A stretch of DNA of 64,000 nt from Myxococcales bacterium (GTDB lineage Bacteria > Myxococcota > Myxococcia > Myxococcales > Myxococcaceae), in contig JAUXRI010000022.1 in NCBI GenBank assembly GCA_030681895.1, forward strand, positions 1-64,000, in the 5' to 3' direction. Below, one piece after another: positions 32,308 to 49,843 of the stretch (its first letter is position 1; each line of letters begins with the position of its first letter). Made by a program: the position numbers and the translations under genes. The notes under the pieces are model-generated. The model did no database searches and was not told the DNA's origin. It saw nothing but the letters and a program-made list of their open reading frames with translations.

Positions 32308-32323
32308 TGCAGTGCGGGGGCCA
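32308..32323 (-). promoter_or_regulatory. Candidate sigma-54 promoter of the GH44 gene
   Basis: Read on the minus strand the site is TGGCCCC-CGCA-CTGCA: GG at -24 and GC at -12 with the correct 12-base phase and a TGCA -12 box (consensus TGGCACG-N4-TTGCA). Transcription would begin near 32297, about 27 bases before the ATG, leaving just room for the AAGGAGGT site. The neighbouring regulator gene encodes a sigma-54 activator. Not tested statistically. Confidence 0.5.
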
Positions 32324-32691
32324 TGTCGCGTGCCGACCCAAGACGTCGCATTCAGGAGCCACCGACGAACCACGCGCGACGCGTCCGTGCACTCGTGCAC
32401 GCCCCGACGAGAGCCCGACGCCCAACCTCGGCGGATCAGGCGGCTCCACGGCGTGCGGTGATGCACGCGCCCATTCGTGATTCGTGCGTCGAAAGGCTGC
32501 CACTCGGACAGGTCGCACCTCGCGCGAACGCTCCAACGTCACGCGTGTGCCACGGAGCACGGAGCGCCGCGGCTCTTCGACGCATGCACCGCGACTCGCG
32601 CGTACTCCAGCGTGTGCCTCGACACACACCACGGCACATGCACCTCGACGAATTCAGCGTGCGCTTCGCCCGCCGCCGTGTGCGCTGCGCC
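32324..32691. other. Non-coding stretch upstream of the GH44 gene
   Basis: No frame here shows a recognisable protein, and codon pattern is poor in all six frames. It is possibly decayed coding sequence belonging to the receiver-domain remnant that follows. Any upstream activator sites for the candidate sigma-54 promoter would be expected here, but none could be assigned. Confidence 0.4.
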
Positions 32692-32803: not shown

Positions 32804-33062
32804 GCTCGCCTCACCGTCGACGCTGCCCCGCATCGCGAGGGCTCCGCTCACCGTCGACGCCCTGCCCGCATCGTGAGGCCCAGCTCAGCGCGTGTGCGTG
32901 CGCCCGTATCGTGACGATCGGCTCAGCGCGTTCGCTGCGCCGCCTCTGAGACTCAGCCCTGTGCGCTGCGCGGCATCGTGAGGCTCACCTCCGCGCGTTC
33001 GCTGCGCGACGCGGCATCGCGACGCTCAGCTCACCGCGTGCGCTGCGCCCGCATCGTGCGCA
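32804..33062. repeat. Degenerate tandem repeat next to the WecG-family gene
   Basis: About seven imperfect copies, 33-40 bases each, of a unit close to gctcagctcaccgcgttcg + ctgcgcccgcatcgtgag. The last copy (about 33024-33062) is the 3' end and stop of the WecG-family gene itself. The others appear to be decayed copies of that end. Copies differ by point changes and small indels and there are no unique spacers, so this is not a CRISPR array. Confidence 0.6.
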
Positions 33063-33786: not shown

Positions 33787-33816
33787 CGGCGCCTATGGTA
33801 GGGCCATGGCCAGCCC

Positions 33817-34755: not shown

Positions 34756-34756
34756 G

Positions 34757-35542
34757 TCATGACGAGAGCTGCGGCGCCTTCGGCTTCACCGGTGACTGCC
34801 CGCCCATCATGTTCACCATCACCTTGCGGGGCACCACGCGGGTGCTGAAGAACACCATCGCCTTGTTCGTGAAGCTGGTGAGAATCGTCGGTGACGAGCG
34901 GGCCTCGAGCGCCTGCATTGCGACGCTCACGACGTCGGCCGAGGTCTGCGAGATGGCCTCAGGAGGCTTCGTGTCGGCCGCCCCACCCGCGGCGTCGTGG
35001 AAGTTGGTCTTCGTCACGCCGGGCAACAACGCCGCCACGTAGACGCCGCGCGGCTTGTTCTCGAACCAGAGCCCCTCGGAGAAGGCCGTGACGAACGCCT
35101 TCGTCGCGCAATAGACGGCGGCGCCGGGGAACGAGAGCAACGCGAGCGTCGACGCGACGTTCATCAGCGCGTCACCCCTCTTCGCGCCCTGCAGAAACGC
35201 ATGCGAGAGCTCGACCAGGCTGTCCATGTTCAGGCGCATCATCGCTCGCGTCGGCTCGAGCGGCCCCTCGGCGAACGTCTCGTAGACTCCGCTGCCGGCG
35301 TTGTTCACCAGCAGGTCGTACTTCGTCGCCCGCACGTCGTCGGCGACCCGCGCGATGTCTGTGGGAAGCGAGAGGTCGGCAGCGAGGAAGCGGTGGCCCG
35401 TGCCCAGCCTCGCGACGTGTTCTGCCAGCTTCGCTCCACCTCGCGCGACGAGCGTCACGTGATAGCCCTGCTTCGCGAGCTGCTCCGCGAACTCGAGCCC
35501 GATGCCGCCTGAAGCGCCCGTCACCATCGCCGTTCGTGTCAT
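34757..35542 (-). CDS. Short-chain dehydrogenase/reductase
   Basis: A 261-residue classical SDR. Cofactor site TGASGGIG (near 8-15), NNAGSG (near 80-85), and the catalytic Ser (NVASTLAL) with YCATK (Tyr and Lys four residues apart). The C-terminal tail is basic and Met/Val-rich (VVPRKVMVNMM), which may bind the membrane. It is the last gene of the minus-strand exopolysaccharide operon, 65 bases after the kinase-like gene. The substrate is unknown; lipid or sugar modification are both possible. Confidence 0.85.
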   Translation of the reverse strand: MTRTAMVTGASGGIGLEFAEQLAKQGYHVTLVARGGAKLAEHVARLGTGHRFLAADLSLPTDIARVADDVRATKYDLLVNNAGSGVYETFAEGPLEPTRAMMRLNMDSLVELSHAFLQGAKRGDALMNVASTLALLSFPGAAVYCATKAFVTAFSEGLWFENKPRGVYVAALLPGVTKTNFHDAAGGAADTKPPEAISQTSADVVSVAMQALEARSSPTILTSFTNKAMVFFSTRVVPRKVMVNMMGGQSPVKPKAPQLSS

Positions 35543-35607
35543 GCGCGCACGATAAGCGGGCGAGCCTCACCCGACCGTGAAGTCGTGTGAAGCGAGGCTT
35601 CCACGTG

Positions 35608-36051
35608 TCAGCGCATCGACTCGATGGTGACGGCGCCGATGAACTTCTGCTTCCCGATGATGCCGACGGTGCTCTCGGCGTCTTCCATGCGCGTGACCCC
35701 CAGGTGCACGACGAGCAGCGCTGCGTCACACACCATCGCGATGGGCACGCCCGCCTGCTGCGACACCACCGACTCGACGCACACCACCGCGAGCCCGCCC
35801 GAGTCGACGTGATGGCTCATCTCGACGATGAGCTTCGACACGCCGGCCTTCTCGAGGCCTTCGGTGAGGAACAGCCGCGCCGGCGCTCCACGCGAGAGCC
35901 GCGCCACCTCGACCACCGCGTCAGCGAACGCGCCGGCCGACATCGACGGGCTGGCTGGCACCACCGCGAGCGACTGCCAGGTGCCGCGCATCACGCCGGC
36001 GAGCTGCTGGTACACCTGCTGGGTCAACTTCGGCTGGGTCGTCTTGCTCAT
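35608..36051 (-). CDS. BY-kinase/Wzc-like protein without a P-loop
   Basis: A 147-residue protein whose second half matches the end of bacterial tyrosine autokinases (Wzc/CpsD/CapB): IAMVCDAALLVVHLGVTRME, then VGIIGKQKFIGAVTIES. The first half aligns with the kinase Walker A region but reads VVPASPSMSAGAFADAVVEVA (30-50), with no GxxxxGK[ST], so ATP binding should be lost. There is no Tyr cluster at the C-terminus. It starts in an ATGA overlap with the GT2 stop and belongs to the wzz-containing operon. It may be a non-catalytic regulator of the Wzz protein. Confidence 0.65.
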   Translation of the reverse strand: MSKTTQPKLTQQVYQQLAGVMRGTWQSLAVVPASPSMSAGAFADAVVEVARLSRGAPARLFLTEGLEKAGVSKLIVEMSHHVDSGGLAVVCVESVVSQQAGVPIAMVCDAALLVVHLGVTRMEDAESTVGIIGKQKFIGAVTIESMR

Positions 36052-37265
36052 GGCCGCGTCTCGTTCTCGCGCGTCGTGCGGACCCACGCTGAAGGTTTCT
36101 GCCCTGCCTTGCCTCGGAGCCCAAGCGCGACCTTCCACGCGACGTACGCGGGCGCGAACGCGAGGTCCATCAGGCCGCGCAGCCCGGTGCGCGAGTGCAG
36201 CCACCCCGCCGTGACGTAGAGGAAGAGGGCCATGGCGCATGCAGTGAAGAGAGACAGCGGCGCCACGACGGCAGGCGACGGCCAGAGCAAGGCGAGCGCC
36301 CACGAAGCGATGAGGCCCGCGCCAGCGGCCAGCACGACCCGACTCAACGGCGGCACCAGCACGTCCATCGCGAGGTCGAGCAGCATGCCGTTGCGCGTCT
36401 TCAGCGCCTTCGACAGCAGCGGCCACCCGTGCTGCTTCACCAATTCGGCCCGCCCGTGCTCCCAGCGGCTGCGTTGCGACCGCGAGGCCGCTTCGCCCGA
36501 CACCATCTCACCCAGCACGTCGGCCTCGCCCACCCACCACACGCGGTGCCCGCGCTGACCGATTCGAATGCCGTACTCGACGTCCTCGACGATGGAGAAC
36601 GCGTCGTGCGGCACCTCACGCAGCAGCGCCGACGAGAAACACATGCCGTTGCCGCGCAGGCCACACGAGACGCCGAGGCGCTCCCGGGCCGTGGAGCGCA
36701 CCTGGTGGAACATGGCCAACGCGATGCGCATCAGCCGCGTGCGCCACGACGCGTTCGGGTTGGCGACGCCGTAGTGCGCCTGCATCGCGTTCGCGCCCTT
36801 CGCCAGCCGGGCCGCGTAGGCCGAGAGCAGGTTCTTCGAAGCCAGCGTGTCGGCGTCCACCACGCAGCAGGCGTCGGCGAAGCCCTGCGCGAGGCTCCAC
36901 TCGAAGGCGTGGAAGAGCGCAAAGCCCTTGCCGCGCCGCTCGGTGTCGGTTCGCTCGAGCACCGTCGCACCCGCCGCGCGCGCCTTCGCCGCCGTGTCGT
37001 CGGAGCAGTTGTCGGCCACCACCACCACCCGCCGCAGGTCGGCCGGGTAGTCGATGGCCAGCAGGCTCGTCACCGTCGCAGCGATGCCGAGGGACTCGTC
37101 ATGGGCCGGCACCACGATGTCGAAGCGCAGCGTCGCGGGCGATGGAGGCGGCGGGGCCGGCAGCGGGCGCGACAGCAGCGCGAGGGCGCCGAGGTAGCCG
37201 CACACCAGGAGCACTGGCAGGCCGAGGAGCGCCAGCACCACCGCGGCGGCGAGCGCCGGCGTCAT
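36048..37265 (-). CDS. Membrane family-2 glycosyltransferase
   Basis: A 405-residue processive-type GT2. An N-terminal membrane segment (about 5-30) is followed by FDIVVPAHDES, VVVVADNCSDDT, a CVVDADTL DxD motif, and a Q/R-x-x-R-W-type motif in QRSRWEHGR that is typical of synthase-like enzymes. Two or three C-terminal membrane segments follow. The start at 37265 overlaps the wzz stop (ATGA). The enzyme probably extends the lipid-linked repeat unit or makes a homopolymer; the sugar is not predictable. Confidence 0.88.
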   Translation of the reverse strand: MTPALAAAVVLALLGLPVLLVCGYLGALALLSRPLPAPPPPSPATLRFDIVVPAHDESLGIAATVTSLLAIDYPADLRRVVVVADNCSDDTAAKARAAGATVLERTDTERRGKGFALFHAFEWSLAQGFADACCVVDADTLASKNLLSAYAARLAKGANAMQAHYGVANPNASWRTRLMRIALAMFHQVRSTARERLGVSCGLRGNGMCFSSALLREVPHDAFSIVEDVEYGIRIGQRGHRVWWVGEADVLGEMVSGEAASRSQRSRWEHGRAELVKQHGWPLLSKALKTRNGMLLDLAMDVLVPPLSRVVLAAGAGLIASWALALLWPSPAVVAPLSLFTACAMALFLYVTAGWLHSRTGLRGLMDLAFAPAYVAWKVALGLRGKAGQKPSAWVRTTRENETRP

Positions 37266-38791
37266 TTCAGCGTCACCTGGCTCAACACCGGCAAGTCGAG
37301 GCGGCGGCTGACCTGCCACCCCTCGACGAAGGTGCCGCTGCGCAGGTCTCTCGTCGCGCCCGCCACCAACGCGAGGAAGACTGCCGCGACCAACGCGACG
37401 ACGAAGAGCACCACCACGTTCGGGGCCGCCGGCTTGCGCGGCACCGAGGCCGGGCGCACCACGCTGTAGCGGTACTTGAAGGCCGCGCGCGCCGTGTCCT
37501 GCTCGATGCGCGCGCCGTCGATGCGCATCATCAGCTCTTCGTACTTGGCCGCCGCGACGCGCAGGTTGTTGCGCGAGTGCTCGACGAGCGGGTCGTCGGC
37601 GAGCTCCGAGTTGGTGAGCGCCACCTGCGTCTGCTGCGAGCGACGCACCAACGGCCGGTTCGAAGGCCGTGAAGGCTCGACCAGCGCGTCGGCGTCTTTC
37701 CCTCCCTTGCGGTGGTACTCGGCGTTGAGGCTCTCGATGTCGCCCTTCACCTGCATCATCTGCGGCGAGTCGTGCTTCATCTGCGTGATGCGCTGCTCCG
37801 CGTCGATGACGACGGGGTGCTGGTCGGCGTACTGCACGCGGAACTCCTGCAGCTGCACGGTGAGCTCCGAGAGCCGCCGGCTGCGGAAGTCTTCGAGGTC
37901 GGCGAGCGCGCGCTTCTTCGAGTTGAGCAGGAACTTCAGCTGTGCGAGCTCCTGGTCGTTCGCAGCAGGGGCGGCGTTGGGCGGCAGCTCCGCCACGGGC
38001 GTCACGCTGGGCGGCAAGATGCCGGTGGCCGTCTCTCCGCCCGGCGCGGGCAGGGCAGCGCCAGAGCCCCCTTTGCGGCGGTCTTCACGCACGCGCTCCA
38101 GCTCGTGCAGCGAATCGTCGACGGCCTTCTGCACCTGGGAGGCGTGGCTCTCGAGAATCGCCAGCGCCTCGCTGATGGCCGTCATCTCGGTCACGTGCCG
38201 CGTCTCGAGGAAGTTCTGCTGCGCGGTCTCGACGAGCAGGTAGGCGGTCTGCGGGTCCTGCCAGTCGACGCTGATGGTGACGGTCTGCGCGTCGGTCTCG
38301 ACCTTCAGCCGCTTCTCGAGGGTGCCCACCATCGCGTCGATGCGGTCTTCTTCGGTGATGGGGCCCGTGATGAGCCGCATCAGCAGGTCCTTCACCCGCA
38401 CCACCGGCGGCCGCTGCGCTTCCCAGCTCTTGAGCAGGCTCGTCTGCTTGATGAGCGAGACCAGGTTGTCGTGGGCGAAGATGAGCTCACGCGCCGCGCG
38501 GGTCGGGTCATCGGACTGCAGGCTCGAGCGCGGGTTGCCGAGCGCGCGGATGATCTCGTTCTGGTTCGCCAGCAGCCTCGCCTCGGCGTGCCAGGTGCGC
38601 GGCACCAGCATCACCGCGACCGAGCCCAGGCCAAGAATGAACGTGAACACGGCGAGGGACAGCAGCCGGTGCCTGCGCACGCCGCGGAAGACGAAGCCGA
38701 TGACGTTGCGAATGAGCGTGTAGTCGAACAGGTCGAGCGACTCTTCACGGTTCATCGACGTCGGCGGCAGCGGCGCGGCGGGGTCGGTCAC
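37262..38791 (-). CDS. Wzz-type polysaccharide co-polymerase
   Basis: A 509-residue chain-length regulator. The GTG at 38791 overlaps the receiver gene's stop (GTGA). A cytoplasmic N-terminus is followed by a first membrane helix (near 42-64). A long periplasmic part has coiled-coil stretches (ILESHASQVQKAVDDSLHEL and LEDFRSRRLSELTVQLQEF). A Pro-rich RPASVPRKPAAPN motif precedes the second membrane helix. There is no kinase domain; the P-loop-less protein at 35608-36051 may stand in for it. The locus has a second Wzz region fused to Wzy. Confidence 0.88.
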   Translation of the reverse strand: MTDPAAPLPPTSMNREESLDLFDYTLIRNVIGFVFRGVRRHRLLSLAVFTFILGLGSVAVMLVPRTWHAEARLLANQNEIIRALGNPRSSLQSDDPTRAARELIFAHDNLVSLIKQTSLLKSWEAQRPPVVRVKDLLMRLITGPITEEDRIDAMVGTLEKRLKVETDAQTVTISVDWQDPQTAYLLVETAQQNFLETRHVTEMTAISEALAILESHASQVQKAVDDSLHELERVREDRRKGGSGAALPAPGGETATGILPPSVTPVAELPPNAAPAANDQELAQLKFLLNSKKRALADLEDFRSRRLSELTVQLQEFRVQYADQHPVVIDAEQRITQMKHDSPQMMQVKGDIESLNAEYHRKGGKDADALVEPSRPSNRPLVRRSQQTQVALTNSELADDPLVEHSRNNLRVAAAKYEELMMRIDGARIEQDTARAAFKYRYSVVRPASVPRKPAAPNVVVLFVVALVAAVFLALVAGATRDLRSGTFVEGWQVSRRLDLPVLSQVTLK

Positions 38792-39174
38792 GGGGCGTCC
38801 TGGCTCAGGGTCTCTTGCACGGCGGCGACGAACTGCGCCTGGGTGAAGGGCTTGGCGAGGTAACACTTCACGCCCAGCTCTTCGGCGTAGGCGCGGTCTT
38901 CCGGCATGGTGCGGGCGCTCACCATCAGAATGAGCAGCCCCTTGAGCGCCTCGGTCTTCCGAACGTGCTCGCACACGTCGTAGCCAGACGACTCGGGGAG
39001 CATCAGGTCGACGCACAACAGCAACGGCCGGCTCTCGTCGAGGCGCTTGATGGCGGAGCGGCCGTCGCTCGCGAACGAGACGGTGAAGCCCAGGCGCGTC
39101 AAGTACGCGCCGAGCACCTTGCGGATATCGGGGTCATCATCGACGACCAGGGCAGTTTTTTCGGTCTGACTCAC
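38788..39174 (-). CDS. Stand-alone response-regulator receiver protein
   Basis: A 128-residue single receiver domain: VVDDDPD (10-16), acceptor Asp in CVDLMLPE (near 56), a MVSAR Ser/Thr position and AKPF Lys. No output domain. It is embedded in the exopolysaccharide operon, between the barrel gene (33 bases upstream) and wzz (GTGA overlap), so phosphorylation probably adjusts assembly or export through protein contacts. Its kinase is not adjacent. Confidence 0.92.
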   Translation of the reverse strand: MSQTEKTALVVDDDPDIRKVLGAYLTRLGFTVSFASDGRSAIKRLDESRPLLLCVDLMLPESSGYDVCEHVRKTEALKGLLILMVSARTMPEDRAYAEELGVKCYLAKPFTQAQFVAAVQETLSQDAP

Positions 39175-39207
39175 GACGGGGGATTCCTGTGGCGGGTGTA
39201 GCAGAAC

Positions 39208-40413
39208 TCACCAGGACGTGGTGTCGCGGTCGCGAACCACGGCGGCGAGGGTGAAAGCCCAGAGCATCTGCCCGGGCGACATGGTGCGGGGTTGTTCCGT
39301 CCACACGGCGCGGCCGGTGCCGACGAGGGCGAACCAGTTGGTGCGGTCCCACCGCAGCGACGCTTCGGCGAAGGTCGCGCTGTCGCCGGCCTGTGGCGCG
39401 CGGCCGAGGTCGATGGCGTAGCCGGTGCCGAGTGATGCCCCTGCGGTGAGCTCACGGGTGAGGCGCGAGTTGGCCGAGGCGCGGCCTTCGAGGCGCTCGT
39501 AGACGAAGCCGGTGAAGCGGTCGGCGAACGGCGAGAGCTGCACGCCAAGCTGCAGCTGCACCGGAATGCCTTTGAGGTCGAGGGTTGACGCCAGGCCCGC
39601 CTGCGCGACCGGTAGCGCCTCGAAGAAGAGGCCGGGCGGCGGGCCTCCTTCGAGCTGGACGACGCGCTCGCGGGTGAGCGCCACGCCCGCGCTGAGCGTG
39701 AGCGTCGTCGGGCGCGCCAGGGCCCACTGCAACCCTTCGGTGAAGAAGCCGATGCTCTGCTCTCCGCCGGTGTTGAAGACGGCGTGGCTGGCCTGCACGG
39801 TGGTGATGAGATGCAGGCGCCGGTCGACGGTGAGGTTCAACGTGGCCGTCCCGGCAGGCCCGGACTGGAGCGGCAGGGCACGGCCACCCGTCGGGTCGCC
39901 TGACAACAGCCAGGCGGCCGAGAGCGTCGCCGTGACGCGGTCGTTCGGGCGCACGTCGAGCACGGCGTACGAGGCCGAGCGCACGTAGGGCACGGCGCCG
40001 AGGGTCTGCACCTCGAAGACGCCAGTGGGCATGGCTCCGGCGGGCAGGCGAAGCGAGCCGATGTCGGCCACGCCGTACGAGGCGTCTTCCGACAGCAGCA
40101 ACGACGCACGCGTGAAGCGGTGCTGCAAGGTGACGATGGCGTTGTGGAGCGGCAAGACGCGCGCGGCGACCTGGGGCTCCCTGATGATGAGCTGCGGGGC
40201 GTAGCGCAGCGTCAGGAGCGTGCGCGTCCACTGAATCGCGCCGGCAGCCACCGGGTCGAGCTGCAGGTCGGTCGTCGCGCCGATGGCCACGTCACCCGGC
40301 AGCGGCGCGCGGGTCGCGACCGTCGCGGTGGCAGACACCTCGTACCCCACGACGGCGGCCGCAGCGTCGAGCGCCAACAGCGCAAAGCCGACGGTGGCGG
40401 CGCGAACGTTCAT
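39208..40413 (-). CDS. Outer-membrane beta-barrel of the exopolysaccharide export pathway
   Basis: A 401-residue exported protein (MNVRAATVGFALLALDAAAA signal). The mature part consists of alternating amphipathic strands with Gly/Thr/Arg/Asp turns and ends in an aromatic residue (DRDTTSW), as many outer-membrane barrels do. It is coupled by ATGA overlap to a short OPX protein upstream. In Myxococcus, short OPX proteins need a partner barrel (such as EpsX/Wzp) to cross the outer membrane, and this gene fits that role. The family call is by structure and context rather than motif. Confidence 0.75.
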   Translation of the reverse strand: MNVRAATVGFALLALDAAAAVVGYEVSATATVATRAPLPGDVAIGATTDLQLDPVAAGAIQWTRTLLTLRYAPQLIIREPQVAARVLPLHNAIVTLQHRFTRASLLLSEDASYGVADIGSLRLPAGAMPTGVFEVQTLGAVPYVRSASYAVLDVRPNDRVTATLSAAWLLSGDPTGGRALPLQSGPAGTATLNLTVDRRLHLITTVQASHAVFNTGGEQSIGFFTEGLQWALARPTTLTLSAGVALTRERVVQLEGGPPPGLFFEALPVAQAGLASTLDLKGIPVQLQLGVQLSPFADRFTGFVYERLEGRASANSRLTRELTAGASLGTGYAIDLGRAPQAGDSATFAEASLRWDRTNWFALVGTGRAVWTEQPRTMSPGQMLWAFTLAAVVRDRDTTSW

Positions 40414-41021
40414 TCCGCGACGACGACGTCCAGCGGCTGGAGCAGGAACTTCACCGACGCCTGGTCTCCCGAGGTGAGGTTTTCCCACGTGAAACGAATG
40501 CGCACCGGCTTCGTGGTCGGCCCCGGCTTGCGCACCACGAACAGCCCATCTTTGTGCGCGAAGTCCGTCAGGCCGCCCGAGGCCGCGATGGCGTGCAGCA
40601 CGCCCGCGCCAGGGTCGAGCGTCACCACGCCGGGGCGCACCACCTCGCCCACCACCGACACCGACAGCGGGCGCATCTCTTCGAGCGAGACGGTGACGAC
40701 GGGCGTGTTGATGAACTCCTTGAGGCGCACCTGCAGCTCGACGGCGACCTGCGTCGGCATCTTGCCGGCCACCACCCAGTCGTTCACCAGCGGCAGCGAC
40801 ACCTTGCCGTCGCCGCGCACCCGCACCCGCGCCGACATCGCCTCTTGCTGGAAGACGCGGACCTGCAGGGTGTCGCCGGGTGAGATGATGTACTCCCCGG
40901 GCACGCTCGCGCCGTAGGCGTCGACCGGAATGAAGATGCCTTTGGGGGCCCAGCAGGCCGCGAGGGCAGGAAGCAACATGAACAGCAATCGTCGGGAGAG
41001 CGTCATGGCGGCTTCGTTCAT
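40410..41021 (-). CDS. Short OPX (Wza-family) polysaccharide export lipoprotein
   Basis: A 203-residue export protein. The start at 41021 overlaps the wzx stop (ATGA). A lipobox LAAC lies near residue 22. Poly_export domain: YIISPGDTLQVRVFQQ (near 44-59), VRVRGDGKVSLPLV. A SLBB-type domain follows: LSVSVVGEVVRPGVVTLDPG and LHAIAASGGLTDFA. It lacks the C-terminal amphipathic helix that forms the outer-membrane pore in E. coli Wza, so it needs the neighbouring barrel protein. Confidence 0.92.
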   Translation of the reverse strand: MNEAAMTLSRRLLFMLLPALAACWAPKGIFIPVDAYGASVPGEYIISPGDTLQVRVFQQEAMSARVRVRGDGKVSLPLVNDWVVAGKMPTQVAVELQVRLKEFINTPVVTVSLEEMRPLSVSVVGEVVRPGVVTLDPGAGVLHAIAASGGLTDFAHKDGLFVVRKPGPTTKPVRIRFTWENLTSGDQASVKFLLQPLDVVVAE

Positions 41022-42559
41022 GGCACGACTGGGGAGACGTTCAACGGGGCATCAGGTTCGGTCTGCGTGGCGCGAGCAGTGCGGACGAAGGCGAGCAGCT
41101 CACGGATCTTCACGGCTCCCGTGCCCACCACCAGCAAGACGTAGACCGCGGCGTCGACCGACAGGCGCAGGGCCGGGTGAACGCGCTCCAGCAGCCAGTA
41201 GTCGAGGGCCGAGACGACCGCGCACACCACCAGCGTTCGCCCGATGACGCTCAGCGAGCGGCGGTCGAACGCACGGCGCCCCACGAGGGCCGTCATGGCA
41301 ATCGTCACCACCACCTCGGTGCCCAGCTGCGAGATGGCCGCGCCGATGCCAGCCCCGCCCACACCGAACCACCGCATCGACGGCCCGATGAAGAGCCAGT
41401 TGAAGAGCGGGTTCGCGATGAGCCCGCCGATGGAAATGAAGGCCTGCGCCCAGGCCCGCCCAGTCAGAATGAGCGCGTTGGCCGACAGAATCGCGACGTA
41501 GGTCAGCACGAAGATGCTCGAGAGCACCTTGAGCGAGGTCGCGGCAGGCGCGTACGCGGCGCCGTACAGCAGCACCACCCACTCCTTCGCGCCGAGCGCC
41601 ATGAAGAGCGACGTGGGGAACGCGATGGCCAGCACCAGCTCGAGCGAGCGGCGCATCACCAGCGAGTACTCCTCGTCGGAGCGGGCCCGCGCGCGCGCGA
41701 ATAGCGGCATCAGCACCCAGCCGATCATCGGCGTCACCATCAGCGCGAGGCCGGCGATGAGGCTCGCGGCGCCGTACCAGCCCACCTCTTCTTCGCCGGC
41801 GACCAGCGCGAGGATGCTGACGTCGAGCTTGTTGTAGATGGTGTGCGCGGCGAGGTTGACGAACATCGGCAGCGAGCCCACCAGCGCCAGGCGCGTGTTC
41901 TTCACGTCGATGACCCAGCGCAGCGCGAGGTGTTTGCGCGCGAGCCGGGCGCTCACCACCAGCTTCAACCCTTCGCTCGCGACCCACGGGAGCCCCAGCA
42001 TCCACAGCGGCTGGTGCAGCACCACCACCAGCACCGTGCCGACGCCCCAGACGACCTTCGCGGCGATGTTCAGCACCGACAGCTCGTTCACGGTGCCGCG
42101 CGCGTGGAGCAGCGAGGCGAGGCTCTGGCTGATGGTGGCGAGGAGCGCCGAGACGGCGAACAGATGCACCAGCGCCCACGTCTCGGGCGGCCGATGCGCC
42201 AGGACGAGGAAGGCCTGCGTCGCGCCGAAGAGCACCAGGCCCGTCAGCAGTCGCAGCGCCGTCACGCCGCCGAAGAACTCCGAGGCGTGCGAGTACCGGA
42301 CCGACACTTCCTTGCGGATGTACGTGTCGATGCCGAACGAGGTGAGGATGAAGAGGGTCGAGACGAACGCGTCGGCGAAGTTCATCGCGCCGAAGCCTTG
42401 CGGCCCGAGGTAGCGCGGCAACATCAGCCGCACACCCAGCGCGATGCCCCACGTCACCATCAGCGAGCCGAACAGCTTCACCGCGTTGAGGGCGGCGAGG
42501 CGCGTGTCCCCCTGCGCCGAGCGCTGCTCGTTCACAGGAGGTGGTGCAGCGTCACTCAC
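41018..42559 (-). CDS. Wzx-type polysaccharide flippase
   Basis: A 513-residue MOP-superfamily transporter with about 12-14 hydrophobic segments, starting at GTG. The N-terminus has the family's RYLGPQGFGAMNFADAF pattern near 48-65. It flips undecaprenyl-linked repeat units across the inner membrane. It lies 9 bases downstream of the sugar transferase stop and overlaps the OPX gene, so this is the core of a Wzx/Wzy-dependent pathway whose polymerase is in the neighbouring operon. Confidence 0.9.
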   Translation of the reverse strand: MSDAAPPPVNEQRSAQGDTRLAALNAVKLFGSLMVTWGIALGVRLMLPRYLGPQGFGAMNFADAFVSTLFILTSFGIDTYIRKEVSVRYSHASEFFGGVTALRLLTGLVLFGATQAFLVLAHRPPETWALVHLFAVSALLATISQSLASLLHARGTVNELSVLNIAAKVVWGVGTVLVVVLHQPLWMLGLPWVASEGLKLVVSARLARKHLALRWVIDVKNTRLALVGSLPMFVNLAAHTIYNKLDVSILALVAGEEEVGWYGAASLIAGLALMVTPMIGWVLMPLFARARARSDEEYSLVMRRSLELVLAIAFPTSLFMALGAKEWVVLLYGAAYAPAATSLKVLSSIFVLTYVAILSANALILTGRAWAQAFISIGGLIANPLFNWLFIGPSMRWFGVGGAGIGAAISQLGTEVVVTIAMTALVGRRAFDRRSLSVIGRTLVVCAVVSALDYWLLERVHPALRLSVDAAVYVLLVVGTGAVKIRELLAFVRTARATQTEPDAPLNVSPVVP

Positions 42560-42568
42560 TTCGACGCG

Positions 42569-43954
42569 TCAGCTCGCGCCGCGGCCAGTGAAGACGACCG
42601 GGAAGGTCTTGAGGATGAGGCCGATGTCTTTCGAGAAGCTCCAGGTGTCGATGTACTGGAGGTCCATGTACATCCACTGCTCGAAGGAGATCTCGTTGCG
42701 GCCGCTGACCTGCCAGATGCACGTCAGGCCGGGGCGCACCGAGAGGCGGCGGCGCTGCCAGGTCTGATACTTGGCCACTTCTTGCGGCACGGGCGGGCGC
42801 GGGCCGACGACGCTCATGTCGCCACGGAGCACGTTGACCAGCTGGGGCAGCTCGTCGATGGAGAACTTCCGCAGGAACTTACCGATTGAGGTGATGCGGG
42901 GGTCGCTCTTGATCTTGAAGACCGGGCCGTCCATCTCGTTCTTCGCCGACAGGCCGGCCTTCAGCGCCTCGGCGTTGTCCACCATCGTGCGGAACTTCAG
43001 CATGCGGAACGGGCGGCCGTGCAGGCCCACGCGCGTCTGGCGGAAGAGCAACGGGCCACGCGAGGTGAGCTTGATGAGAATGGCCACCACGATGAGCAGC
43101 GGCGAGAGCAGCCAGAGCGCGACGCCAGACGAGAGAATGTCGAAGCCCCGCTTGAACGCCATCGCGACCGGCCGCGAGGCGACCGTCTGGTAGTGCAGGT
43201 ACCCGTCCTTGATGCCGTGGGTGCCCATGGGGCTCGCGCGGTCGAGGCGGAACATCGAGGCCGGCAGCGCGAACGGAATGCCGAAGGACTCGCAGACCTT
43301 GATGGCCTTCTGCATCTCAGCGGCGTTCGAGAGGCCCGTGTTCGCGAAGTACACCTCGGCGACCGGCAGGGTGCGCAGCACGCCGTCGAGCTCGTCCGTC
43401 GAGCCCAGCACGCGGCCCTTCAGTGACGTGGGGCTGGCCTCGGCAGGGAAACGAACGAAGCCCGCGACGCGCATGCGGCCCTTGGTCTGCACTTCGTCGG
43501 CGGTCGCCCGGCCCAGCGCGCCCACGCCGACGATCAACACGTCGTCGATGGGGCCCGACTGCGTCGAGAAGGTGCGGAACACCGAGAAGCGCATGCCGAC
43601 CGCGAGCGGCCAGAGGATGAGGAGGAAGACGCCGACGTTCGGCAGGCCCTGAACTCCGAAGACCAGGCTCGTCAGCGCCAGCACGGTCGTGACCGCGAGC
43701 ACCAGCACCGACGTCATCGCGGCGTCGTCGAAGGCCGCGCGCTCCGACGCCCACGGATCATAGTGACGCAGCGCCATCGCAATGATGAGCCAGGTCAGCA
43801 GCGCCGGGAGCACCAGGCTCAGCGTCATCGGCTGGAGCGTGTGGGAATTGACCCAGGAGGCACCGACGAGTGCGATCAGGACGAGGAGCAGGTCGAGCAG
43901 GAAGCTCACCCGCGCCACGGCGCCTGCTGCGATTCGCCCGAAAAGTGAGTGCAT
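42569..43954 (-). CDS. Initiating undecaprenyl-phosphate sugar-1-phosphate transferase
   Basis: A 461-residue WbaP/WcaJ-type enzyme. The ATG at 43954 has CGGAG nearby. Four or five N-terminal membrane helices (about 10-145) precede a Rossmann-like domain with DDVLIVGVGALGRATADEV. The catalytic domain starts at FKRGFDILSSGVALWLLSPLL and includes FRMLKFRTM and DELPQLVNVLRGDMSVVGPRP, the signature for this family. It transfers hexose-1-phosphate to undecaprenyl phosphate to begin repeat-unit synthesis. First gene of the long minus-strand operon. Confidence 0.94.
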   Translation of the reverse strand: MHSLFGRIAAGAVARVSFLLDLLLVLIALVGASWVNSHTLQPMTLSLVLPALLTWLIIAMALRHYDPWASERAAFDDAAMTSVLVLAVTTVLALTSLVFGVQGLPNVGVFLLILWPLAVGMRFSVFRTFSTQSGPIDDVLIVGVGALGRATADEVQTKGRMRVAGFVRFPAEASPTSLKGRVLGSTDELDGVLRTLPVAEVYFANTGLSNAAEMQKAIKVCESFGIPFALPASMFRLDRASPMGTHGIKDGYLHYQTVASRPVAMAFKRGFDILSSGVALWLLSPLLIVVAILIKLTSRGPLLFRQTRVGLHGRPFRMLKFRTMVDNAEALKAGLSAKNEMDGPVFKIKSDPRITSIGKFLRKFSIDELPQLVNVLRGDMSVVGPRPPVPQEVAKYQTWQRRRLSVRPGLTCIWQVSGRNEISFEQWMYMDLQYIDTWSFSKDIGLILKTFPVVFTGRGAS

Positions 43955-44061
43955 GTGGGATTCTCCGGAATGACTTGACGGAAGTTGCTTTAAATCAAGG
44001 TGGCGTGTCGCATAACGCACCGCATCAGGCAAGTGCCGGTGCTTCCTTCTCATGATTCCAT

Positions 44062-44078
44062 GTACATCGGGCGTGCCA
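44062..44078 (-). promoter_or_regulatory. Sigma-54-like element upstream of the exopolysaccharide operon
   Basis: On the minus strand the sequence reads TGGCACG-CCCG-ATGTA. The -24 box is perfect, and the spacing is right, but the -12 box has GT instead of GC (consensus TTGCA). Start would be near 44050, about 95 bases before the ATG at 43954. Tentative, because the -12 GC is normally invariant. Confidence 0.3.
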
Positions 44079-44169
44079 TTTGTGTGTCGGTGTGGGTCGC
44101 ATCGCCGTTCCACTTGTATTATTCCACTCAGGCCAAAACAACATGACGGACGTCAAGGTCATGATTTCA

Positions 44170-44187
44170 GGATTCTTTTGTGAATCC
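44170..44187. repeat. Inverted repeat ggattc/gaatcc
   Basis: Six-base arms with a six-base T-rich loop in the A+T-rich gap. There is no T run on either side, so it is unlikely to be a terminator. It could be a regulator site or chance. Confidence 0.3.
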
Positions 44188-44353
44188 GGGAGCCTCCAGC
44201 CACGCTGGGAGATTTCCGCCAACAGTCAAACTCAGCGTTCGGCTCAGCCGAGGTATGTACCTGTGCGACATCTGTGCCAGCACATCTTCCCCGAGCTGCG
44301 CCGGGAATGCGTTGGATCGCGTGACCGCAGCAGCCAATGCGTGACGGACGTGG

Positions 44354-46822
44354 CTACAGACTCGGAGCTGGAGCGCGCCAGACGCCGTGCCGGCTCGCCG
44401 ATCGCCCGATGATGGCGACCGCGACCGAGACGAAGAAGACGAACTGCATCGCCTGCGTGCCCATGTCGCCGAACGACTGCAGCAGGTACGTGATGATGAC
44501 GCCAATGGCGACGAGCAGGCCCACGCGCTCGCTGACGTCCGAGGCCCGGCGCAGCGCCCTGGCGAAGAAGAAGCTGGTGATGCCCAGGTAGAGCCAGACG
44601 CCGAAGAACCCGAAGATGCCGCCAATCCACAGCAGCCAGAGCACCGAGTTGTGGCCGATGTGCCCGAAGGACGACTGCGCGAAGTCGTTCGACGGCAGGA
44701 ACTCCTTGAAGGCGTGGCCGAAGCCCTGGCCCAGCATCGGGTCGCGCTCCCACGACTTGAGCAGGTTGAAGTTCTCGATGTCGCGCTCGACGTTCGAGCT
44801 CTCTTCTTCGGTGTCGGCGGCCGGCGCGATGATGGAGCGCACCTTCACCACGGGCTTGAAGATGCCGCCGCGCGCGTTCCACCCGACCGCCGTGTAGATC
44901 AACAACACGGGAATCATCACCACCATCACCTGGGTGGCGAAGCGCTTGGTGCGATGCATCGGGCTGAGCAGGTAGACGAAGCCCAGCACCATCGCGATGT
45001 CGACGTAGGCGATGCGCCGGTCGTTGAGCCGCAACGCCATCGCCAGGAACGGCAGCCACAGCAGCGCCTCGCCGAGGTTGCGCCACGACGGCCACTCCCA
45101 GACGCGCACCAGCGCCAGCACCACGCCGATGACGAACACCATCGTGTCGTTGTGCCCGGTGGTGTGCGGCGGGTACTCGCCCATGGGAAGGGCGACCCGG
45201 TAGATGAAGTACGTGCCGAGCAGCGCCTTCACGACGCTCCCGAAGACGAGCACCCGGCCGACGAGCCGCAGGTCCTTCGGGAAGTCGAAGGCGACGAGCG
45301 CCAGCATCGCGACCACCGGCATCGAGAGCAGCGCGCGGAACTGCCAGAGCGCCTCACGGAAGACGCCGCCTCGCAGCACGCCCCACGCGATGAGCCAGCA
45401 CACGGTGAGAAACGAGACCAGCAGCGCAGTCCTCAACGGCCCGGGACCGGGAAGGCCAGGCGCCTCGGCCTTTGCCGACAGTCCGAACAGCCGCCGCAGC
45501 ACCGTCAGCGCCGCCAGGCCCATCACCGAGAGCTCGAAGCCCGTGAACCACAACACGTTGGTGAAGAAGAGCCGCCCGACCGGCCACAGGGGTGAGCGCC
45601 AGAGGTTGTAGTAGGGGCGATCGGTCGGGTCGTCGACGGTGACGGCGACGAGGAGCAGCACCAGCAGCGGCCACTTGAGCGGCAGCCGCCACAACGCGAC
45701 GGCCCCGACGAGCAGCAGCGTGGGCACCAGGCCCGCTGCAAGCGACCCTCTCCCTGCGGCGAGCGCGAGCCCCGACGCCAGGCCCAGGGCGACCCCGGGG
45801 AGCGCCGTGCGCCACTCGGCCCGCACCATGATGCCCGACCACCCCAGCCGCAGCCGCCCCACCACGGGCAGGCCCAGCGAGTCCACCAACTGCCCTTCCG
45901 AGACCACGCGCCCGCTGCGGTAGGCCGCAAGCACAGCCGCGGCGACGAAGACGGTCACCGCCGTGACGAGGAACGCCAGCACCCACCCCATCGTGTTCGC
46001 GCCCTCGGGCCGCCGCGGGGGCAGCGCGGGCCGCGTCACCAGGTAGCGGTGGCTGCTCGACCGGGCCATCGCCTCGGCGCGCAGGTGCACGTTGAAGCCC
46101 TGAAGCCACAGCTCCGAGCGCCTCGCCCCGTCACGCAAGAGCTGCTCCTGGGCCCCTGCGTACTGCGGCCAGCGCCGGGCCGCGGCGGCCGCGCGTTGCT
46201 CCGTCCCGATGAACTCGAGCCGCTGCTGCATCTCGGCCTCGACGCCGGCCCTCTGCGCATCGAGCGCCTGCGCCGACGACTCGAGCGCCTTGATCTCCCG
46301 CTCCTGCCGCAGCCCCTTGAGCGCCTGCACGGTGCCCTCGACGACGGCCACGGCGATGTCACGCTCGGGCCACTCGCACGCGATGAAGACGCGATCGCGC
46401 TCCACCCAGACGTTCAGCTTCTGGTCCACCATCGAGACCAGCGCGTCGAGCTGATCAGCCTCGGCCACCGGCCCGCGCACCTTCTCCATCACTGCGCCCT
46501 TGAGCCGTAGGAGCAACGGCCGCGAGCTCTCCCACCGGTCGATGAGGTTGGTGCGCTTCACCATCTTGACGAGGTGGGCCTTCGCAGTGAGCTGCTCGGG
46601 CAGCTGCTCCAGCCCGCGGTCGAGCGCGGGCACGGCGTCGAAGGGCGAGGTGAGCCGGTACGTCGTCGAGCCCTCGGCGACCAGCACCTCGGCCTGCACG
46701 TGCCAGACCGGCGGCTGGGCGGCCTGAATGACCGCAGCGGCCAGCGCACACGCCAGGACAGCCGCGGCCCCGGCAGCCCGGTGCCTCGACAGACTCACCC
46801 GCAGGCCCTGGCGCGCGTCCAC
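44354..46822 (-). CDS. Wzz-Wzy fusion: co-polymerase domain joined to O-antigen-ligase/polymerase domain
   Basis: An 822-residue protein starting at GTG. Residues 1-340 look like a complete Wzz: a first membrane helix (about 15-35), a periplasmic region with helices such as LESSAQALDAQRAGVEAEMQ, a Pro-rich RPALPPRRPEGAN before a second membrane helix (about 283-308), and a VSEGQLVDSLGLPVVGRL tail. Residues 345-820 carry ten or more membrane segments with GHNDTMVFVIGVV and, near the end, the ligase/polymerase-type IGHNSVLWLLWIGGIFGFF. Wzz and Wzy are normally separate. Fusion would fix their 1:1 stoichiometry. It is third in an operon after GH44 and a micro-protein. Confidence 0.83.
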   Translation of the reverse strand: MDARQGLRVSLSRHRAAGAAAVLACALAAAVIQAAQPPVWHVQAEVLVAEGSTTYRLTSPFDAVPALDRGLEQLPEQLTAKAHLVKMVKRTNLIDRWESSRPLLLRLKGAVMEKVRGPVAEADQLDALVSMVDQKLNVWVERDRVFIACEWPERDIAVAVVEGTVQALKGLRQEREIKALESSAQALDAQRAGVEAEMQQRLEFIGTEQRAAAAARRWPQYAGAQEQLLRDGARRSELWLQGFNVHLRAEAMARSSSHRYLVTRPALPPRRPEGANTMGWVLAFLVTAVTVFVAAAVLAAYRSGRVVSEGQLVDSLGLPVVGRLRLGWSGIMVRAEWRTALPGVALGLASGLALAAGRGSLAAGLVPTLLLVGAVALWRLPLKWPLLVLLLVAVTVDDPTDRPYYNLWRSPLWPVGRLFFTNVLWFTGFELSVMGLAALTVLRRLFGLSAKAEAPGLPGPGPLRTALLVSFLTVCWLIAWGVLRGGVFREALWQFRALLSMPVVAMLALVAFDFPKDLRLVGRVLVFGSVVKALLGTYFIYRVALPMGEYPPHTTGHNDTMVFVIGVVLALVRVWEWPSWRNLGEALLWLPFLAMALRLNDRRIAYVDIAMVLGFVYLLSPMHRTKRFATQVMVVMIPVLLIYTAVGWNARGGIFKPVVKVRSIIAPAADTEEESSNVERDIENFNLLKSWERDPMLGQGFGHAFKEFLPSNDFAQSSFGHIGHNSVLWLLWIGGIFGFFGVWLYLGITSFFFARALRRASDVSERVGLLVAIGVIITYLLQSFGDMGTQAMQFVFFVSVAVAIIGRSASRHGVWRAPAPSL

Positions 46823-46828
46823 GGCTCG

Positions 46829-46999
46829 TCAGCCCAGCCTGGGAACGACGACGCGCAGGAGGAACGCGTAGAACAGGTGAAAGGTGAACAGCCCCAGCAA
46901 CGCCAGGCGCATGCCTTTGAGCGGGTGCGCCTGCCTCGCTGCCCGAATCGGAATGACGACGAGCGCCACCACGATGGACAGCAGGACGAGCTTGCTCAC
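46829..46999 (-). CDS. 56-residue membrane micro-protein
   Basis: A short gene translated from GTG at 46999, overlapping the GH44 stop as GTGA, and ending 6 bases before the Wzz-Wzy GTG. Two hydrophobic helices are apparent: SKLVLLSIVVALVVIPIRAA and LALLGLFTFHLFYAFLLRVV, with a basic loop RQAHPLKGMR between and a PRLG end. Tight spacing on both sides argues for real translation. The family is not recognised. Given its place it may be a small accessory of the Wzz-Wzy protein in the inner membrane. Confidence 0.7.
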   Translation of the reverse strand: MSKLVLLSIVVALVVIPIRAARQAHPLKGMRLALLGLFTFHLFYAFLLRVVVPRLG

Positions 47000-48804
47000 G
47001 GTTGGAGCACCAACACCGACACCGACAGCGGGGGCATCTGGTAGCGGAAGGCGTTGGTCGCGGTGGCCATGACGGCCTGCCCACGCATCAACTGGGCCAT
47101 CGTGCCCGAGAGGGTGAACGGCACCAGCGACTGGTAGCGCTGCGGGTGCGCGACGGTGATGGCGGCGGTGCGGGCCGTGGTGTCCTTGTTGATGACGACC
47201 AGCACGGTGCGACCCGGGTTCGCCGCGTCGACGCTGGCGTAGATGGAGGCCATGGGGACCTGGCTCGAGGTGGCCTCGAGCGAGGTGTCGGCGAAGGCGC
47301 CGCCCTGCCCGTCGAAGTTGCGGAAGGCCTCGAACGCCGCGTCGGCGAAGGGCTCGGCGCCGTTGAGCTTCCAGTAGGTCGCCAGCTCGACCGAGTCGCG
47401 CCCGAAGATGCCCAGGACGTCAGCCGTCGCGACCGCGCCGCTGATGTGGTCGCCAGCGCCGTAGTTCCACTCGGTGAAGGCCAGCTTCGTGCCCGGGTTG
47501 AGGCGGGCAATCTTCTCGCGCATGCGGGGCAGCAACCGGACGGCCTGGTTGTTCAGCGTCTGCACGATCCAGCTCGACTCGACGTAGCTCGGGTCCCACA
47601 GGCTGCGGGGCGCCTGCACCCGCGCGGTGATGGACGCGGCGCTAACGTCACGGCCGATGATGCGCACGTTGCCGCCGCGGGCCTCGGGGTACCAGTGCAG
47701 GTCGAGGTAATCGACGAGACGTTTGCCTTCGGCCTGCTCGGCCGTGTGCACCTGCGCGAGGAAGTAGTCGATGAACTCGCCCTTGCCCGCGCGGTCGGGA
47801 GCGTTCTGCAGGTTCACGTAGCCGTTCCACCCGTACGAGACGAAGCCGGTGACCGGCGCGTCAGGCCACGCACGCTTGATGGCCTTCGCGTAGTCGATGG
47901 AGCGCGTCGTGAGCTCGACGTAGGTGAGCGCGGCCGGGTGAATCTCGGCGTGGGTGTCGCTCCAGAGGTCGGGCTCGTTGTCGAGGCTGAAGAGCACCGG
48001 CGTCGTGCCTGCGTTCGCGCGCACCCAGGCGACGAACTCGTCCTGGTAGACGAAGGCGTCATTCGTATCGGGCGTCATCGAGAGCGCCGAGGGCTTGGTG
48101 TGCCGGTTCTGCTTGAAGCGCGTCGTCAGGTAGTTCGCGCCTGAGTTGCGCACGTCACCGCCGCCGTTCTTGTCGGCCGCGACGTATTCGACGATGGGCA
48201 CGGTCGCGAGCAACGCGGCCGAGATGGCCCGGGCCGCCGTCAGCCGGTCGGTGAGGAGCGCGCCCGCGACGTTGGAGCTCGAGAGGTAGTTGTCGTTCTG
48301 GAACTGGTAGTCGCTGCCGGCGTTCGAGGCGTTGTTCTCCCAGTTGAACGCGGTGAGCCGATTGCCGCCCAGGCGCAGCAGGCCGTAGCGGTTGCGCGTC
48401 GGGTTCGCCGGCTGGTTGGTGCCGTAGATGAGCGGAGAGATGGCGTGCCGTCCGCGATTGCTGCGCACCTCGAGCGTGACGTCGGCCATGCCTGCGCTGC
48501 CAGGAGTGAGCGGCTGGTCGAGGTCGAGGCTCGAAGCACCACCACCGGTCGCCACGCCTCCGCCAGTCGCCGAACCACCGCCCATCGCAGTGCCTCCGCC
48601 AGCCACCGAGCCTCCGCCCATCGCAGCGCCGCCCGCCGCGGAGCCTCCGCCAGTCGCCGCGCCGCCACCGTTCGAGAACCCGCCGTCGGCCGTGCGGCCC
48701 GAGAGCTCGTCACCCGGCGGCTGCAGGGGTCCTCCGTCGATGGCAGAGACGAGACCGTTGCACGACACCATCACCACGACCGACGCGAGCAGAAGAGGAC
48801 GCAT
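46996..48804 (-). CDS. Secreted glycoside hydrolase family 44 lipoprotein with Gly-rich linker
   Basis: A 602-residue protein from ATG 48804. Signal MRPLLLASVVVMVSC ends in a lipobox (MVSC). A GGGSAAGGAAMGGGS-like linker (about 40-90) leads to the catalytic domain: ISPLIYGTNQ, FSLDNEPDLWSDTH (acid/base candidate Glu277), LDLHWYPEA, AFTEWNYGAG (nucleophile candidate Glu445), and a C-terminal beta sandwich. It is closely similar to the gene at 30030-32270 apart from the linker. First gene of the operon with the micro-protein and Wzz-Wzy, so its likely substrate is the locus's own polymer or a related glucan. Confidence 0.88.
   Translation of the reverse strand: MRPLLLASVVVMVSCNGLVSAIDGGPLQPPGDELSGRTADGGFSNGGGAATGGGSAAGGAAMGGGSVAGGGTAMGGGSATGGGVATGGGASSLDLDQPLTPGSAGMADVTLEVRSNRGRHAISPLIYGTNQPANPTRNRYGLLRLGGNRLTAFNWENNASNAGSDYQFQNDNYLSSSNVAGALLTDRLTAARAISAALLATVPIVEYVAADKNGGGDVRNSGANYLTTRFKQNRHTKPSALSMTPDTNDAFVYQDEFVAWVRANAGTTPVLFSLDNEPDLWSDTHAEIHPAALTYVELTTRSIDYAKAIKRAWPDAPVTGFVSYGWNGYVNLQNAPDRAGKGEFIDYFLAQVHTAEQAEGKRLVDYLDLHWYPEARGGNVRIIGRDVSAASITARVQAPRSLWDPSYVESSWIVQTLNNQAVRLLPRMREKIARLNPGTKLAFTEWNYGAGDHISGAVATADVLGIFGRDSVELATYWKLNGAEPFADAAFEAFRNFDGQGGAFADTSLEATSSQVPMASIYASVDAANPGRTVLVVINKDTTARTAAITVAHPQRYQSLVPFTLSGTMAQLMRGQAVMATATNAFRYQMPPLSVSVLVLQP
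48536..48685 (-). repeat. Coding repeat for Gly/Ala/Met-rich linker
   Basis: Imperfect 18-24-base units (gtggcgga/ggctcggt types) encode GGGSATGG-like repeats in the linker of the second GH44 protein. The frame is intact. Confidence 0.7.
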
Positions 48805-48901
48805 GGGAGCACGCGGCGTAGCCGATCGCCGACGCGCGCGCACCTTCGGGAGCCGATTGTCACGCATTCCGGTTCGGCCGCGGGTTATGCGAACAAGGCG
48901 A

Positions 48902-49843
48902 ATGAACGTCTTCACCACCGATGCGTTCCTCGAAACGGCCGCGCAGGTCTTCTTCCCGGGCCGCCCTCACGCCATCGAAGTCTTCCGTATCGAGGGGCGG
49001 CTGATGAAGCTGCTCGTCGTCGACGGGCGCTTGATCGAGCGCATGCCGTTCTACGATTTCCCCCAGCCGCTCGACGCGTGGGCCGGGCCGGTGAAGGAGC
49101 AGTGGTACTTTCCCCGAACGGTGCAACGCACCACCGCCGTCTCCGAGCGCACGCCTGAGCCGCCGGGTCTTCAGCCCTCGCCCTACATCGACTGGACGCG
49201 CTTCGCCGACGAGAAGGCGTTTCGGGCGCACGTCGAGGCGTCGTCGCACCTCAAGCACAACGACTCTGCGCGCCAGCGCCGGCGGGCGGAGCGCGACCTC
49301 GGCCCGTTGAAGTTCGTGTGGGACGACGACCGCCCCGAGGTGTTCGACGCCTGCGTGAAGTGGAAGTCGGCGCAGTACGTGTCGACGGGCGTGGGCGACA
49401 TGTTCGCGGCGCCACAGAACGTCGAGCTGTTCCGGAAGCTCAAGGCCCTCGGGGTGGTGAAGGTGGCGAGCCTGTCGGCGAAAGACACGCTGCTCGCGGT
49501 GCACTTCGGCACGCACACCGACCGGCGCTTCACCTGGTGGATTCCCGCGTACGACGCGACGTACTCGAAGTACTCGCCGGGCCGCCTGCTGCTCTAGAAC
49601 CTGCTGCAGCAGTCGCAGGCGCAGGGCGACCTCGAGTTCGACTTCCTCATCGGCGACGAGGCCTACAAGTTCATGTTCGCCACTCACAACCGGGTGATTG
49701 GGCCCATCGGCGCGCCGCCGGTGTCGCTGCTGCTGCGCACGATGGCGAAGCAGCAGGCGAAGGCGATGCTCGAGCGGTACCCGAAGGCGATGTCGCTCGC
49801 GCGTGACGTGAAGCGCCGCCTTGGTTGGCAGGGGCCCCTATGA
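48902..49843 (+). pseudogene. GNAT-6 (CelD/BcsL-type) acetyltransferase gene interrupted by an amber codon
   Basis: The frame from ATG 48902 is a CelD/GNAT-6-type acetyltransferase, with WWIPAYDATYSKYSPGRLLL ending in TAG at 49595-49597. Reading on in the same frame continues the domain perfectly: NLLQQSQAQGDLEFDFLIGD, then EAYKFMFATHNRV and a helical tail, to TGA at 49841-49843. That TGA overlaps the next gene's ATG (ATGA), the junction style used throughout this region. A GAG or CAG to TAG change in an intact 313-codon gene, or a sequencing error, explains this best. The truncated product would lack the acetyl-CoA site's end. Divergent from GH44, so probably polysaccharide-related. Confidence 0.82.

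Follow-up and report, generated by a model that had tools for sequence, protein, structure and literature searches.

What does a co-polymerase do when it forms one polypeptide with a polymerase, in a gene cluster that encodes an ordinary co-polymerase as well? The question arises from a 64,000-nucleotide stretch of a Myxococcales genome (assembly GCA_030681895.1, contig JAUXRI010000022.1; hereafter the window), which exhibits a single open frame of 822 codons on the minus strand (44354-46822), running from a GTG start to a stop codon. A first reading, made from the sequence alone, took its product for Wzz and Wzy in one protein, pointed to a stand-alone second Wzz at 37262-38791, and supposed that the fused copy may have a different task. 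The protein and its two parts are delimited here as follows.

44354-46822, minus strand: fused co-polymerase/polymerase, 822 aa (frame, NCBIfam matches, alignment, AlphaFold2 model)
45845-46822, minus strand: PCP (polysaccharide co-polymerase, EpsV-like) domain, residues 1-326, with TM1, TM2 and cytoplasmic tail (NF041864, hhalign, model)
44357-45790, minus strand: Wzy_EPS polymerase domain, residues 345-822 (NF041870, E-value = 3.4e-114; Foldseek match of the whole model to WaaL)

A domain search assigned each of the two parts to a family of its own. Residues 362-815 match Wzy_EPS (NCBIfam NF041870, profile positions 27-485 of 486, E-value = 3.4e-114, 382 bits), and residues 7-206 match EpsV (NCBIfam NF041864, E-value = 9.1e-16, 57.5 bits, below the 800-bit curated cut-off). 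Since 382 bits is less than the 670-bit equivalog cut-off, the Wzy part is a relative of that family, uncertified as an equivalog. The stand-alone EpsV of the window is also below the cut-offs, scoring 357 bits against NF041864 (cut-off 800) and 16.7 bits against Pfam Wzz (cut-off 25.5). Pfam Wzz is found at residues 10-53 of the fused protein with an E-value of 0.074 (13.8 bits, below the 25.5-bit cut-off), and Pfam Wzy_C has no match in this fused protein; at an E-value of 0.1, the fused family exhibits Wzz in 6 and Wzy_C in 2 of its 11 members. Aligned by hhalign with a profile of seven EpsVs, the 11 fused relatives match over columns 9-329 against EpsV 34-508 (99.8%, E-value = 2.3e-29). 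At the level of sequence comparison, the gene is shown to be an end-to-end fusion of an EpsV paralogue with the EPS polymerase Wzy_EPS, and the assignment to this myxobacterial EPS pair, rather than to the O-antigen pair Wzz/Wzy, is supported.

The DNA is GC-rich (GC3 of the fused frame is 0.88-0.98 across all 60-codon blocks) and two of the five remaining frames are also stop-free over residues 280-360, so that the case for the fusion rests on homology and on relatives. Residues 300-360 align without gaps with three relatives. No frame break was found near residue 340, and the frame reads through the joint in each of the 11 aligned members. The claim of an 822-residue co-polymerase-polymerase fusion is upheld: the frame is open, both halves are matched (NCBIfam, hhalign) and relatives share it.

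The fused gene lies in an EPS cluster, the assigned genes of which (33031-48918) are all on the minus strand, in the order GH44 (EpsB-like), fusion, EpsZ, Wzx_EPS, EpsY, EpsX, EpsW, EpsV, EpsU, probable EcpK, EpsA.

46996-48918, minus strand: EpsB-like glycoside hydrolase (GH44), immediately upstream of the fusion (NF041873, E-value = 5e-63; Pfam GH44, E-value = 1.3e-55)
42569-43954, minus strand: EpsZ initiating phosphoglycosyl transferase (NF041877, E-value = 2e-191)
41018-42559, minus strand: Wzx_EPS flippase (NF041871, E-value = 2e-128)
40410-41021, minus strand: EpsY, OPX export protein (NF041843, E-value = 6e-57)
39208-40413, minus strand: EpsX outer-membrane exporter component (NF041842, E-value = 5e-15)
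38788-39174, minus strand: EpsW single-domain response regulator (NF041866, E-value = 2e-38)
37262-38791, minus strand: EpsV, kinase-less stand-alone EPS co-polymerase, 509 aa (NF041864, E-value = 1e-106, below the curated cut-off)
36048-37268, minus strand: EpsU glycosyltransferase (NF041865, E-value = 4e-171)
35608-36048, minus strand: probable EcpK, tyrosine pseudokinase partner of EpsV, 146 aa (neighbourhood in relatives)
33031-33786, minus strand: EpsA glycosyltransferase (NF041872, E-value = 3e-93)

The second Wzz seen at 37262-38791 is thus present, and is the ordinary EpsV of the cluster. No family model identifies EcpK at 35608-36048; the gene is so named because many relatives have a homologue adjacent to epsU, wzy or epsD, and because of the published place of ecpK within eps clusters (PMC12004946, in excerpt). 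In Myxococcus xanthus, the same kind of cluster contains homologues of both halves, EpsV (MXAN_7421), a kinase-less PCP-2 (PMC12004946, in excerpt), and Wzy_EPS (MXAN_7442). There they are two proteins encoded by separate genes (PMC7484181, in excerpt), whereas here Wzy is joined in one chain to a shortened copy of EpsV, with a separate EpsV encoded besides.

An AlphaFold2 monomer model of the full fused protein (pLDDT 75.7, pTM 0.67) exhibits both PCP helices and the polytopic part. TM1 lies at about 15-35 and TM2 at about 277-303, followed by a cytoplasmic tail at about 304-326; the PCP part further contains strands of the membrane-proximal domain (39-48, 136-141, 144-151) and a two-helix hairpin (154-215, 222-258). 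The linker (residues 306-334) has pLDDT < 50, and after this low-confidence cytoplasmic stretch the polymerase part forms about 14 membrane helices; TM2 should end in the cytoplasm, and the polymerase should begin there. Foldseek matches of the whole model include WaaL (7tpg_B, E-value = 3.7e-7), Wzc (9r62_I, 3.2e-4), WzzE (8p3p_A, 8.2e-4) and KpsE (8tsh, 8.5e-4), of which the first probably belongs to the polymerase part and the other three to the PCP part. In the model the polymerase part has the WaaL-like polytopic fold of a predicted polymerase. It carries IGHNSVLW at residues 722-729, and R489, R602, R680 and H724 are invariant in the 11 fusions; arginine and histidine residues in loops matter in Wzy. 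The polytopic polymerase/ligase with an IGHNSVLW-type block had accordingly been recognised correctly. A profile search of PDB sequences gave PslE, which we take to be a PCP, as the only match below 1e-3 (E-value = 3.7e-5, columns 114-215). The model of the stand-alone EpsV is of low confidence (pTM 0.28), and a profile of the seven EpsVs had no match to solved structures at an E-value of 0.1.

The anatomy of the PCP part was read from an alignment of 11 fusions and 7 EpsVs. Residues 1-326 of the window protein (P0001) align with EpsV 28-508 with one single-residue insertion, and are 25% identical (81/326) to the EpsV of the same genome. Residue 326 pairs with EpsV residue 508 of 509, so that the natural C-terminal end of EpsV is joined to the polymerase. 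The Wzz-like region with both helices stands as an EpsV-type PCP, its extent being 1-326 rather than the 340 residues first given. It was wrongly called whole, since it lacks 156 EpsV residues of the periplasmic arm (240-380 and 386-400), as well as the N-terminal tip. We take the missing arm stretch for the distal helical arm. Retained are TM1, the membrane-proximal periplasmic domain, the first and last arm helices, TM2 and an EpsV-like tail. Before TM2 stands RPALPPRRP (264-272), a proline-rich motif in this place being a mark of PCPs. Its P269, like W151, does not vary among the 18 aligned rows, fusions and EpsVs together.

The fusion is shared by relatives. In the family survey (96 genomes, 88 matching either part), ten genomes, the window's included, match across both parts. 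The divergent G089 is an eleventh; the first search saw its Wzy only, and the fusion was recognised on reading the locus. These 11 genomes represent four genera (g1, g4, g19, g26) of one family, and the fused relatives are 41-82% identical to the window protein. The class survey (147 genomes, 106 matches) adds G124, of a different family, in which 1023 codons encode a near full-length EpsV part (profile positions 43-356 and 396-472) and Wzy. The phylum survey (Myxococcota; 195 genomes, 112 matching either part) yielded no further fusion, giving 12 fusions in the 112 matching Myxococcota genomes. The Wzy frames of 81 of the 112 were read with HMMs and the other 31 genomes were judged by match coordinates. 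A fusion is possible in three of the 81 (G146, G048, G083), in which the frame is truncated by a contig end where the polymerase starts or close to it, and in G085, in which it is truncated in this way 139 residues ahead of the polymerase. Among the 31, frames of at most 587 codons are too short for a fusion in 29, and G129 and G131 have no Wzy among the matches listed. G103 (match 198-815) was rejected as a fusion, being two overlapping genes, and so were the long Wzy frames of G047 (1046 codons), G001 (912), G068 (1009) and G086 (1343), in which an HMM search found no PCP. A scan of genome contigs with two short polymerase patterns gave ten loci, all fused, all belonging to the main fused clade (the truncated copy of G009 among them) and all metagenome-assembled (labelled Archangium, Myxococcus, Myxococcaceae, Archangiaceae and Myxococcales); plasmid records gave no tblastn match.

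A separate EpsV accompanies the fusion in 11 of the 12 genomes (in G013 as two pieces on two contigs). No stand-alone EpsV was found in G009, a genome 80% complete in which a contig end cuts the fusion copy before TM1. The fused genomes have no second wzy_EPS among the matches listed. In three of the seven genomes of the window's genus (G090, G092, G094), two of them 98-100% complete, neither the fused protein nor EpsV has a match, and the EPS cluster may be absent from them.

The two halves differ in conservation. Mean identity to the window protein is 0.43 for residues 1-340 vs 0.64 for residues 341-822 (nine relatives, without G009 and G124). Nei-Gojobori dN/dS was obtained for the pairs G000-G091, G000-G093, G091-G093, G000-G095 and G008-G011. 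In this order it is 0.28, 0.36, 0.42, 0.53 and 0.55 for the PCP part, 0.21, 0.24, 0.31, 0.30 and 0.39 for the Wzy part, and 0.26, 0.29, 0.29, 0.33 and 0.28 for the stand-alone EpsV. The PCP part evolves fastest, with dN/dS above both Wzy and EpsV in five of five pairs, which share genomes and are not independent. Judged by these ratios, the fused PCP is under purifying selection, weaker than that on EpsV or Wzy. Across the joint (residues 300-360), differences at codon positions 1, 2 and 3 number 10, 11 and 25 with G091, and 29, 29 and 27 with G095; differences thus concentrate at the third position with G091 but not with G095, which indicates little constraint on the joint itself. The PCP of G089 is strongly diverged with a degenerate tail, and given this divergence the domain may be losing its function.

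Phylogenetic trees bear on the origin of the fusion. The PCP tree (49 rows) unites the 11 fused PCPs in a single group (100/100), on a long branch outside the EpsVs, and places the fused PCP of G124 with its own EpsV (79/95). In the Wzy tree (52 rows, 51 genomes), the 11 fused sequences are again one group (100/100) and G124 is elsewhere; the well-supported branches of this tree force two changes, so that two fusion events are favoured. An AU test on the PCPs (G089_FUS excluded for its long branch) left a single origin of the main clade and G124 unrejected (p-AU 0.064), as it did a derivation of the fused PCP from the EpsV of the main clade itself (p-AU 0.31). From the trees, the G124 fusion looks like an independent event. 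It occupies the ancestral place before EpsU, and its contig carries another EpsV close to EpsC and Wzx.

L053:5932-9000 and L092:8989-11310, minus strand: EpsV-Wzy fusion of G124 with the long arm kept, and separate EpsV on the same contig (HMM)

Gene order suggests how the main clade may have arisen. Of 30 unfused loci that hold EpsV, 13 have no more than 90 nt between the end of EpsV and the Wzy match; such an arrangement, with epsV directly upstream of wzy, is a likely source of the fusion. In seven more of the 30, EpsV and Wzy are about 1.3 kb apart with an EpsU homologue between them, in another seven they are further apart, and in three they are on opposite strands; ten additional unfused loci lack a complete EpsV. 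The outgroup G047 has the order EpsZ-EpsY-EpsX-EpsW-EpsV-Wzy-EpsU-EcpK. In the fused clade, EpsU comes next after EpsV, with no wzy in between, in every case where the two share a contig, and EpsZ stands immediately after the fusion in nine of 11 genomes (G000, G009, G011, G012, G013, G053, G091, G093, G095), this adjacency being unseen on the contigs of G008 and G089. Wzx stands between EpsZ and EpsY in G000, G091, G093, G095 and G013; no wzx homologue stands there in G053, G011 and G012 (L062, L066, L067), as in G047. Judging from gene order, the ancestor would have had epsV directly upstream of wzy; the pair would have been copied to the front of the operon and then fused, after which the original wzy and the distal arm would have been lost.

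Related systems suggest what such a protein may do. According to excerpts of PMC10030265, the WzzE octamer of enterobacterial common antigen synthesis holds one WzyE in its membrane lumen (about 8 to 1), and TM helices and a membrane-proximal motif common to PCPs are central to the contact with Wzy. An 8:1 Wzc-Wzy complex has been modelled with moderate confidence (PMC12881504, in part). In these papers, the evidence on the meeting of Wzy with a PCP ring, and on their ratio, is one low-resolution complex and models (PMC10030265 and PMC12881504, both in part). WzzE-WzyE is like the fused protein in placing a polymerase with a PCP ring, but it consists of two separate chains, with one PCP and no covalent link. 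Wzc (PCP-2a, a PCP with a tyrosine kinase) resembles the fusion in carrying one more domain, which follows TM2 and is cytoplasmic in location; that domain is a kinase in Wzc and a polymerase here. The kinase-like partner in the EPS pathway is a separate pseudokinase, EcpK (PMC12004946, in part), to which EpsV is modelled to bind by its cytoplasmic tail (same excerpts); the fused PCP has a tail like the one so modelled. EpsV has also been modelled with two helical stretches, and EpsV and EpsY are proposed to span the periplasm jointly (PMC9601211, in part). We found no Wzz/PCP-Wzy fusion in the literature searched, which covered few subscription journals, and none is mentioned in the excerpts of PMC12004945, PMC4594306, PMC7310880, PMC12004946 and PMC7484181.

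We consider it somewhat probable that the fused protein contributes a membrane-proximal co-polymerase subunit to the EpsV ring, an assembly that we infer, and tethers one polymerase inside it. The fused PCP would be an anchoring subunit, taking one place in a ring otherwise built of EpsV, and the attached polymerase would then lie in the membrane cavity within the ring. One fused chain and about seven EpsVs would give about one polymerase per ring, polymerase and ring could not separate owing to the covalent link, and the long-armed EpsV subunits would still hand over to the exporter EpsY/EpsX. Because the fused PCP keeps the part expected to face Wzy and is without what we take for the far arm, a division of labour is suggested, EpsV serving the exporter and the fused subunit the polymerase. 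The different task supposed for the fused copy would be docking or anchoring, rather than a separate setting of chain length. With so low an identity to its own EpsV (25%), its joining the same ring is not assured. It is a more tentative proposal, falling short of an even chance, that a second EpsV paralogue was welded to the EPS polymerase twice independently, and that every co-polymerase ring would thereby surround exactly one polymerase. The main-lineage copy would be a dedicated nucleator without the arm that is supposed to reach the exporter, and its hetero-ring of one fused chain and about seven EpsVs would fix the polymerase stoichiometry through the covalent link.

The chief rival is that the PCP part is a relic, the remnant of an epsV-wzy pair joined by loss of a stop codon, and that EpsV alone works as co-polymerase. 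Intact EpsV is indeed encoded alongside, the distal arm is lost, and slow decay would fit both the strongly eroded PCP of G089 and the raised dN/dS of this fastest-evolving part. However, that dN/dS (0.28-0.55) is below 1 in five of five pairs, and the architecture is the same in all 11 members (G009 as far as its contig end allows). Moreover, the membrane-proximal domain and the TM2 region are kept, including the W151 and P269 common to all 18 rows. We judge a relic unlikely. Less probable still is an autonomous short co-polymerase, in which the fused chains form a separate ring of PCP-1 size producing a second, shorter chain class, and EpsV shares a polymerase from elsewhere. Eight fused chains would mean eight polymerases, and the published cavity takes one (PMC10030265, in part); with no second wzy_EPS among the matches listed, EpsV would also be left without a polymerase of its own. 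What recommends this alternative is the domain of about 326 aa, near PCP-1 length (the WzzE chain in 8p3p has 332 residues), its two-helix hairpin, the Foldseek match to the PCP-1 protein WzzE, and the precedent of pathogens with two O-antigen chain-length regulators (review PMC12004945, in excerpt).

It is hardly credible that two genes were joined by a sequencing or assembly error. The window assembly is fragmented (352 contigs) and all ten named relatives are metagenome-assembled, but a fusion common to 11 genomes of four genera, at 41-82% identity and with a gap-free joint against three relatives, leads us to reject an artefact. A natural fusion lends independent evolutionary support to a direct polymerase-PCP partnership, and such a fusion, kept alongside a normal EpsV, suggests an inherent means of keeping one polymerase in each ring. 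A polymerase unable to leave its co-polymerase would be a ready reagent for structure work, and could help to decide between ratio and ring geometry as the determinant of chain length.

Several other genes of the window adjoin or accompany the cluster. Two EpsB-type GH44 hydrolases (30030-32351 and 46996-48918, both minus strand) flank it at both ends. Adjoining it at 28170-29963 (minus strand) is a sigma-54 activator (AAA+, Fis-type HTH) with an N-terminal PilZ domain, possibly a c-di-GMP-linked regulator, homologues of which are found near wzy in G063 and G076. EpsD and EpsC homologues are located on the opposite strand away from the main cluster (12690-13733 and 23312-23848, both plus strand). 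Within the cluster, also on the opposite strand, is a polysaccharide deacetylase-like gene (33817-34755, plus strand); several relatives have homologues of it close to their eps genes.
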